The position numbers and the translations under genes were made by a program. Of a stretch of DNA of 64,000 bases, positions 52,201 through 58,154 are shown piece after piece. The notes under the pieces were generated by a model. The model made no database searches and had not been told where the DNA came from. It was given only the letters and a program-made list of their open reading frames with translations. Each line of letters starts with the position of its first letter. The first letter of the stretch is position 1. Source of the DNA: Plumapathes pennacea (lineage: Eukaryota > Cnidaria > Anthozoa > Antipatharia > Myriopathidae); contig OZ038465.1 in NCBI GenBank assembly GCA_964036295.1, positions 6,000,667 to 6,064,666 of the forward strand. Direction: 5' to 3'.

Positions 52201-55200
52201 AGACGAAGACGGTATGTCTAGCTTAAATATGATCTTTGTAGTAATATTTGATAAGCAAAAGCTTGAAAGTGTTCTATACATCGTCAAGGTGCGTTAGGGA
52301 GTCTCCTATAAAACACACAAAAGCCCACACAAGTGGTCAGTTGCAATGAAACGGCTCGGACCAAAAGTTTCAGAACAGAGTGCTCTACCGGTATATTTTT
52401 ATCATTTTTTATTATTCTAAATGCATTTAGTGAGTTCCTTCAAATAACCCTTCTCAAAGGCAGCCTACCCGTTTGTCCATTATTCTGTAAAGTAATGACT
52501 GTAGAATAGCTTATGCATGACTGCTAGACCATAGAAGAGTTCTTGTCAGAAATTCTAAAAATTCCCAACTGAATAAATATACTTATTCTTGTGATAGTTC
52601 CAAGTCAGCCTCCTCCGACTGTTGAAGTTTTCGTGCACAGTTCCACCACCATGACAGTTATATGGGATAATATAGACCAAACCGATGTGCATGGCGTTCT
52701 CAAAGGATATAATGTCTCGTACGGAAGACACGAGGGAAGTGCTAGCATTCTGTGGAAAAGCGAGCTTGTATTGGCCAGAGACACTTCTCTGGTCCTGAAA
52801 GATCTCCAAGAATTCACCTACTACTCCGTCTTGGTTTGCGCTTTTACCTCAAAAGGCTGCGGAGTGGAGAGCAGAAAGATAACCGTGCGCACGCGCGGAG
52901 ATAGTATGTTCAGTACAGTTTCTATTTCTCAGCATTTCTCAAAACTAAACTAATAATGTTGCTAAGTTAAAGAGGTCGCTCAAAAAGTCGCGCAAGTGAC
53001 TCAGCTGTCTCAAAATATGATTTTTAAATTTAAACACACTTTTGTACATTTTATCAGAGATTGAAGAAGAATTTTAGAAAGCTCGGCATCACAAATCAAG
53101 ATCTACTTCCTCAGTTAAATCGCAATTCATAAATTTTGTTGCATAGTTTCTTTGAGTGTTTTTATAATGTTTAAAGTAATTTTTCTTAAAACGCCTTTGT
53201 TCTCCCTAGGTCCCAGCGTGCCTCCGCAGGACGTGAAAGTACTGGACCTGTTCTCCTTAAGCAGGATTCGAGTGAGCTGGGGCCCAGTCCCCGCTGGACA
53301 GGTCAATGGCGATCTTCAGGGGTACAAACTCACTTACCAGTTGATAAAAGCTTCTGACCAACACGTACGAGACACAAGAGAAATTCTGGTGACGTTAGGA
53401 CCGCATAATCTGTCCATTGGCATCCAAGAGCTGCGTTCGTTTGCGGTTTACAAGATCAAAGTCGCAGCTTTTACAAAGTGGGGAACTGGACCCTACAGTG
53501 AATACGTCACTGCAGGTATATTTCTTAACTCCTCACCAGGATCCTTTGCCTCTTCACGGCTAAGAAACGGCCACTAGAAAAACATGTTACTTGTAGTAAC
53601 AAAAGTTGGACGTTTACAGTGACGGTACTCTGAGGCATTTTGGGACATTTTCCCATTTTACACATCATGAAGATAACAAATCTCAACATCATGTTTGAGT
53701 CGCAGTTTTTAATAAAAAATATACGTGATTGCTTTGATTTTGCGTTAGATAAAGTTTTTTAACATTTTTAGCTAATTATTTCCCTCTTGAGTTGAAAAGT
53801 AACATTTAGCCTTTTGTCGTGATAGTAAATGTTGACCTATTGCGAACTACTTTAGCAGCAGTTACTTCGGTTTTTAATTTTACAAAATCTAAAAGCAGCA
53901 GATGTAATATTTTCACTATCTCGCCTATTTGTTATCGCTATATGGTTGAAAGTACATGTGTTACATGTTTTTAGTAGTTCATACCATGTGAACGTCGAAT
54001 TGAGTTACTTAGTAATATCATGTTCATAACAGCATGAATCAATGAAACCAGTTAGAAAGAAAAAATGTTTTGGTTGAACAAATGCCTTCTTAACTTTCTT
54101 CCAGAAACTTGCCGTTGCCCCAAAGTACTCTACACAAACTACTGGGCCCATCCCCCTTATGTCAGAAGACTTGAGGACGGAACGGTTGAGGGGATTTTCC
54201 TAAAGATACTCAAAGACATGGTACGTGTGGCGTGTGGTAAATGCAGCAACGGTCATGGCGAAACAATAGTGAACACAAAGTCAAACGGACATGCGGATAA
54301 GCCCGCCTTCAAAACAAGCTTTAATTACGTGTTACAGGACATTGATGACGTGCCTCAGATTCACTTCCCCATATATGGCAACAAGTACGTCACCAAGTAC
54401 CTGGGTACCTACACATACGTCTACCTTGTAGAGTCCCCTGGGGTGGTGTTTATAACAGTCAGTGATGCACCATCTACCCAAGGAAGGATTTTAAGTCGAG
54501 CATTTTCTGTTGGTCTTCCACTGATTTGCGTGACACTTTGTGCCGTCTTTCTTTCTGGATTTGTATTTTGGCTCATGGTGAGTGAACTGCTTCTTGTGCT
54601 CAGGGTGTGTTTCTTTGGTTGACTTAGAAAAGGGAGAAAACCTTTCACCATAGAGCGGTTTTTCGGATGACTGTCGAAAACCAAAACCAATTGAAAGTAA
54701 TTACACCGCCAAACACAGAGACTGTACTAGAAATATTTTAGACCAGTCAGAAACCAAATTAATTTGCATTGAGTTTTACTTAGTTTGAAGAAGTAACCCA
54801 TCAGCAGTGTGGAGAAACGCCATCGCCACTTGCTTGCTTACGTGAGAATATCACAATCAGGTTTTGCTGTTGTTCCTGATTGACCGAGAGTGCTGTCAAA
54901 CTTCTCTTGCCAAAAGCGTAGCAAACGCAAAAACAATGCAATCACAGGTTTACTTTCGACAGTCATCCAAAAACCGCTGTAAAACGGAGTAAAGCTTGCT
55001 AGAAATTCCAACAAGAAATCCATTAACATCTCTGTTGTTGCTATCCGCCCTCGTTTCTTAGAAATTTTCGTTTCACTTGTTCAAGGAAAATTTAGTTCCA
55101 GTTATATTCTGCCAATCATTTCACCTGGTTTTCTTAATCGAAGTAATGCCCTAAATATGTTTTCTATGTCATTAAGGAGTTTGTATGCGGTTCTCAAGAA

Positions 55201-58154: not shown

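Follow-up and report, generated by a model that had tools for sequence, protein, structure and literature searches.

The 64,000-nucleotide stretch of the Plumapathes pennacea genome analyzed here in full (hereafter, the window; C4:6000667-6064666 of the 290-Mb, 24-contig genome) contains, on the forward strand, a gene predicted to encode an ion channel subunit in which a potassium channel-type selectivity filter, TTVGYGD, is set into the architecture of ionotropic glutamate receptors (iGluRs). Its fifteen exons (49295-58154) make up a single open frame of 1071 amino acids with the sole stop at the end. A preliminary description of this DNA had followed the gene over 54105-58154; the exons it named are correct, but the gene reaches upstream to 49295 at least.

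The filter is encoded by two exons. The first, 55177-55271, specifies the turret, the pore helix and the first filter half (TTVG) and ends in ACG GTC GG; the second, 55368-55524, begins with T TAT GGC GAC and specifies the second filter half (YGD) and the M3 helix, the filter being split after TVG by a phase-2 intron (GG/T). Both exons have AG/GT borders and, when joined, translate to ...GIWWSYASMTTVG followed past the intron by YGDRTPRT..., with a match to Ion_trans_2 over the pore (E = 5e-16). They are in frame with the exon for the S1 half of the clamshell and the M1 helix (54105-54577; 45-50% identity to coral homologues), two exons for S2 (55858-55924, 61-73% identity to Stylophora homologues, and 56049-56320, 46-49% identity to the homologues P0001, P0002 and P0003), and the exon for a linker and the M4 helix (56725-56899). 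The last exon, 57727-58154, stays in this frame, encodes a coiled-coil-like cytoplasmic tail conserved in four paralogues, and has the stop codon as its 3' border. Together, these seven exons specify a core of 554 amino acids (S1-M1, pore and M3, S2, M4 and tail). The joining of the two pore exons, already proposed in the preliminary description, is confirmed by their borders and by the frame shared with S1-M1, S2 and M4.

Eight further exons with AG/GT borders hold the same frame upstream of the core. Two encode TSP1 domains (49295-49453 and 49683-49853; TSP_1 E = 3.9e-17 for two stretches of the spliced protein), the second of which is 53% identical to the Stylophora homologue P0003. Three encode parts of a SEA-like domain: 49999-50108, aligned by eye with P0003; 50233-50282, assigned from frame and borders; and 51568-51710, which is 41-47% identical to P0001, P0003 and P0040 and contains a GSV motif that we take to resemble the self-cleavage site of SEA domains. 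The SEA label is based on alignment to homologues; the Pfam SEA model was not reached in the spliced window protein and is reached weakly, below the cut-off, by the homologue P0076 (E = 1e-4). The remaining three exons, 51906-52211, 52598-52903 and 53210-53515, each encode an FN3 domain (E = 4.7e-9, 3.6e-8 and 3.3e-9, respectively; E = 3.9e-26 for the three stretches in the spliced protein). FN3 and the S1 domain directly precede M1, and the gene model has no S1-S4 voltage sensor before the pore.

In Pfam, the pore of the spliced protein is matched by Ion_trans_2 (E = 3.8e-15) and Ion_trans (E = 4e-6), and potassium channel pores were the only matches in a sequence search of the PDB. The search of Rfam over 48000-60000 of the window gave no match. 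The labels S1, M1, P (pore), M3, S2 and M4 are consistent with the predicted models of two homologues, both of which have the M4 helix, and the fold of these models matches iGluR and GluR0 structures. The ligand-binding domain (LBD) of GluR0 is matched by the family profile at 97.4%, with shuffle controls, and the S1 of the family resembles that of GluR0 by both profile and fold; the similarity of a homologue model to the rotifer receptor AvGluR1 is in the LBD only. By these models, the architecture is that of the iGluR superfamily: a two-lobed LBD split by the pore block, S1-M1-P-M3-S2, and then M4, in agreement with the order given in the preliminary description. That description had also pointed to a separate, unrelated potassium channel gene as a conceivable source of the pore segment. 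This was looked for and is not the case: pore and flanks lie in one frame, and the paralogues and homologues, P0079 (see below) among them, have the same order, so that a pore borrowed from an unrelated neighbouring gene was rejected.

Judged from sequence, the pore is of the GluR0 type, that is, a TxVGYG filter in an iGluR-type block with an NPxxFP turret. The turret, W..[DE]...NPxxFP, and the residues leading to the filter and beyond it are common to the family and GluR0 (36% identity over 83 columns), and the family M3 is ILTSYMSTELT, not of the SYTANLAA type. The transmembrane profile of the family matched GluR0 at 99.8% (E = 1e-29) and the canonical iGluRs of the same genome at 89% (E = 2e-6). 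When the Synechocystis genome was scanned with the family pore profile, GluR0 scored 73.4 bits and the next three proteins, all potassium channel-like, 31.7, 25.5 and 23.4 bits. With GluR0 scoring far above the potassium channels and no voltage sensor in the gene model, assignment to the voltage-gated potassium channel (Kv) genes was rejected. Among 98 cyanobacterial genomes, 51 contain some match to this profile; full-length matches, at 73-89 bits, were found in ten, and the score next below these is 57.7. Three proteins fetched from the group at 50-54 bits (L069, L070 and L071, Nostoc-type) are GluR0-like without a potassium filter; their pore block is of the iGluR type but reads TLATQADEMP where the family has TTVGYGD. 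The filter of the window protein is exact, which suggests that its channel is selective for K+.

When 6691 candidates were scored against the window core, 53 proteins reached E<=1e-3; four weak matches among these (P0050-P0053) resemble ordinary bacterial potassium channels. With a profile of 28 members, 243 proteins were retrieved (7993 candidates scored). Most of the listed homologue entries carry no organism; every organism-named entry among the best 120 of the 243, on which the named range rests, is cnidarian. The named homologues come from stony corals, sea anemones, the octocorals Dendronephthya and Xenia, Hydra, Hydractinia, Clytia and the jellyfish Rhopilema, the closest being those of the corals Porites, Stylophora and Desmophyllum, at about 42-50% identity. 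Among 133 homologues listed, 128 have TTVGYGD, one TTLGYGD and one TTVGFGD, and three are without this stretch. The architectures comprise short forms of about 500 amino acids, which lack adhesion domains and are the most conserved, and forms with CUB-Ig, EGF or TSP1-SEA-FN3. The databases label these proteins 'uncharacterized', 'potassium channel domain-containing' or 'potassium voltage-gated channel'. P0079 runs uninterrupted for 947 amino acids, on a contig no longer than 4176 bases, in the order SEA-FN3-S1-M1-P-M3-S2-M4; because the window gene is interrupted by introns, this sequence is apparently a spliced message. In one entry, P0070, a GalNAc transferase is fused to a CUB-Ig-channel protein, probably through the merging of two adjacent genes by annotation.

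This is a large cnidarian gene family, not a single oddity. Searching the P. pennacea genome with the first pore exon gave 30 matches (E<=0.001), including four of 83-88% identity that lie 60-220 kb away or 74 kb upstream. The four neighbouring paralogues have the same exon chain, including the intron between TVG and YGD, with S1-M1 exons 92-94% identical to that of the window copy, and the ratios of nonsynonymous to synonymous substitution rates (dN/dS) between the window copy and these neighbours are 0.35, 0.34, 0.41 and 0.48. Because the four paralogues share the chain, dN/dS is 0.34-0.48 and the database homologues have the same order, the exon chain goes beyond chance; chance joining of exons was also rejected on the single frame over 15 exons. 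A search with the P0010 pore, from a short-form homologue, yielded 158 exon matches. Among the 150 matches listed, an exon ending in TVG was paired with one starting with YGD if both lay on one strand no more than 6 kb apart; this gave 57 candidate loci, that of the window among them, along with 12 exons without a partner and 24 Kv-like matches free of interruption. S1-M1 and S2 profiles were applied to 37 fetched loci, the check thus covering these and the paralogue set; S1-M1 and/or S2 lie beside the pore in 35 of the 37, corresponding to 27 distinct genes, one of them passing weakly (L033, S2 E = 0.004). The other two are a second fetch of the L036 gene (L045) and a Kv-like match serving as the negative control (L060). 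Nine paired loci of the iGluR-like type with a potassium filter form a tandem array on a single strand at C4:8456152-8573104, and there are more clusters on C12 and C5.

The phylogeny proposed in the preliminary description was constructed from a short alignment of the M1-M3 block (66 sequences, 95 columns) with GluR0 and the canonical iGluRs of this genome, AvGluR1 and the iGluRs of other animals being left out. The family is a single clade (support 93, or 98 without the filter columns), and the seven canonical iGluRs form a separate clade with support 100. Because the two clades are separate, the family probably does not consist of canonical animal iGluRs with a repaired filter, and re-acquisition of the filter within the canonical receptors, one of two origins that the preliminary description had considered, is disfavoured. 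The bacterial GluR0s are not one clade in this tree, which leaves the attachment of the family among them unsettled; the origin of the family may be ancient retention or gene transfer from bacteria.

In a survey of prokaryotic receptors, as far as its accessible part goes, an Arg in S1 binds the carboxylate of the ligand and an Asp in S2 its amine, both being fully conserved (PMC2950845). In our alignment, the S1 column holds Arg in 19/19 GluR0-type proteins and 7/7 canonical coral iGluRs, compared with 1/35 family rows (P0045); it is Asp or Glu in 20 of the 35 family rows, and the window protein has Val there. The loss of the Arg was seen in all three alignment modes used, the third of which gives 18 acidic residues and 2 gaps. 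In four of the 35 rows, an Arg stands no more than three columns away, and the role of the S1 Arg has possibly shifted to it. The stretch in question is the Arg-bearing helix in GluR0 and is shorter in most family rows. By contrast, the S2 acidic residue is retained in all 35 rows (34 Asp and 1 Glu), including the window protein, where it is the Asp of the ALVDTYVA motif aligned with that of GluR0. With the S1 Arg absent from the window protein and from 34 of the 35 family rows, the label 'glutamate-receptor-like' given in the preliminary description holds for the iGluR-like architecture with a potassium filter in a cnidarian, but a glutamate receptor in the ligand sense was rejected: the usual mode of amino acid binding appears to be lost, glutamate is probably not bound in the usual way, and the ligand, if any, would be of another kind. 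The loss of the Arg, in many members with an acidic residue in its place, together with the retained Asp, points to an amine, another cationic or a non-amino-acid ligand, or to gating through the adhesion region.

Taken together, we interpret the window gene, with a probability of about 0.78, as encoding a subunit of a K+-selective channel, presumably a tetramer, that is of the prokaryotic GluR0 type and has an extracellular adhesion-type region. In the proposed mechanism, the TSP1, SEA and FN3 domains would lie outside the cell and run directly into the two-lobed S1/S2 clamshell; by analogy with GluR0 and iGluRs, closure of the clamshell would pull M1 and M3 and open the pore of the putative tetramer. 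The TTVGYGD filter would pass K+, so that opening would hyperpolarize or clamp the cell, and the FN3-SEA-TSP1 arm might anchor the receptor or relay contact.

Several observations weigh against this interpretation and are considered here along with the explanations that compete with it. The transmembrane profile of the family also matches ordinary potassium channels strongly (99.6%, E = 2e-23). Lig_chan is matched in the window protein at E = 0.0014, under the Pfam cut-off and outscored by Ion_trans_2 and Ion_trans, and none of the Pfam ligand-binding models is reached, S1 and S2 going unrecognized; furthermore, both structure models are of homologues, with mean predicted local distance difference test (pLDDT) values of 75 and 69. 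When the filter columns are kept, the tree places the family beside potassium channels, at a support of 35, which is no real support. The ranking of the Pfam models and this placement in the tree would suit an independent fusion, separate from GluR0, of a Kv-like pore with a domain resembling periplasmic binding proteins. We consider such a fusion improbable given that the family shares with GluR0 both the turret, as far as the Gly of W..[DE]...NPxxFP...G, and the residues that follow the filter, that GluR0 stands at 73 against 32 bits in one bacterial genome, that the grouping with potassium channels vanishes once the filter columns are removed, and that the LBD matches that of GluR0. A canonical animal iGluR that regained a potassium filter would account for the shared S1-M1-P-M3-S2-M4 order, including the M4 that GluR0 lacks, and animals, as this genome attests, own canonical iGluRs. 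It appears even less probable, given the separate clade of the latter and the far stronger match of the transmembrane profile to GluR0; moreover, the canonical proteins keep ANF_receptor and Lig_chan-Glu_bd (both seen in L011), the S1 Arg and the SYTANLAA-type M3, none of which characterizes the family.

The window copy itself is more divergent than most family members. Its pore is without three residues that are invariant in a 15-row alignment (A4), namely, the N and F of NPxxFP and the E of EGFWW; the turret, clear in the family, is partly eroded to QEVP, and the Glu of GxGEG (EGFWW) is kept in the four neighbours. Two of these close paralogues carry lesions, an 8-base gap in the M3 exon of L019 and an in-frame stop in the tail of L021, so copies do decay; L020 and L022 have neither. 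Such changes, and the presence of retroelements and partial copies in the same window, would fit a pseudogene or unrelated exons chained together, an explanation that is highly improbable in view of the 15 exons in one open frame, the dN/dS values and the order kept in other species. The window copy is probably a functional, divergent member, less certainly so than the family as a whole. A different challenge concerns gating: the clamshell might be a relic to which no small ligand binds, in a subunit that acts constitutively, as a modulator or in response to adhesion forces. The loss of the S1 Arg with the shortening of its helix and the recurrence of adhesion-type ectodomains (TSP1-SEA-FN3, CUB-Ig and EGF) are in line with this, whereas the invariably acidic S2 position, the preserved clamshell fold and the strongest conservation being in forms free of adhesion domains are not; we regard it as rather unlikely. 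The preferred interpretation, a GluR0-type K+ channel subunit with an adhesion-type region, can be extended, tentatively and with some doubt, to a separate large cnidarian superfamily of K+ channels of the GluR0 type, with an amino acid site rebuilt for a non-amino-acid, perhaps cationic, ligand and with self-cleaving adhesion ectodomains of the three kinds joined to the clamshell. Its members might be adhesion- or amine-gated hyperpolarizing receptors that provide fast inhibition independent of chloride channels gated by gamma-aminobutyric acid (GABA) or glycine.

Among known systems, GluR0 (Synechocystis slr1257) and its cyanobacterial relatives share with the family the S1-M1-P-M3-S2 order, TTVGYGD, the NPxxFP turret and the clamshell fold, but GluR0 lacks both M4 and an ectodomain, retains the S1 Arg and binds glutamate, as in the solved complex 1ii5. 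The receptor AvGluR1, from the bdelloid rotifer Adineta vaga, is gated by amino acids, unlike the family, for which loss of the usual mode is suggested above. Canonical animal iGluRs (AMPA, kainate, NMDA, delta and epsilon) have the same order, with M4, and the same fold of the LBD and transmembrane domain; they differ by the absence of a potassium filter, the SYTANLAA-type M3, the S1 Arg (kept in the coral examples) and an ANF_receptor N-terminal domain, which in the window protein is replaced by TSP1-SEA-FN3. Kv and other two- and six-transmembrane potassium channels have the TVGYG filter and pore helix but no extracellular S1/S2. Adhesion G protein-coupled receptors and SEA-bearing mucin-type receptors also place adhesion modules and a SEA-like domain before a signalling membrane part, which in the window protein is an ion channel.

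In the accessible parts of two papers, GluR0 and AvGluR1 are named as natural iGluRs with a potassium filter, and the relation between iGluRs and potassium channels has so far been argued from these two examples (PMC12332018, PMC12226733). A survey of metazoan glutamate receptors, in its accessible part, covers cnidarian NMDA, epsilon and AKDF receptors (PMC6307864). We found no description of a cnidarian iGluR-like family with a potassium filter in the open-licence PMC literature, outside of which subscription papers and preprints mostly fall. The approximately 57 candidate loci in one cnidarian genome, with their relatives, add many natural examples, in animals such as Nematostella and Hydra where genetics and physiology are feasible. 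If these channels pass K+, cnidarians would have a further form of ligand- or contact-driven inhibition of cells; the altered ligand site poses a clean question of what is sensed, and, given the adhesion ectodomain, such channels might be driven by contact between cells or between cell and matrix.

Upstream of the channel gene, exons on the same strand (44825-48541) encode an F5/8 type C domain (44825-45175; Pfam E = 1.7e-17), a uromodulin-type D8C domain (46715-47257; E = 1.3e-11), and EGF with a Ser-rich tract (47879-48541; E = 2.2e-4). No competing gene was seen, and these exons are perhaps the N-terminus of the channel gene; no homologue examined links them to the channel. A pentaxin-domain exon (32993-33538, E = 3e-28) lies 16 kb before the TSP1 exons and on their strand. 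Copies of SEA-like and FN3 exons of the channel gene family are found at 8153-9345 on the forward strand, without a channel part in the window, and may represent either an incomplete duplicate or the 5' portion of a further gene. The reverse strand holds retroelement pieces at 20644-26881, with an integrase-core match below the cut-off and gag- and pol-like frames recognized by eye, and an uninterrupted frame of 860 amino acids at 27622-30201 for a reverse transcriptase and endonuclease of the LINE (long interspersed nuclear element) type. At 1643-2380 on the forward strand is a RING finger frame, the neighbourhood of which (1303-3410) looks RAG1-like by eye, the Pfam match being to RING alone.
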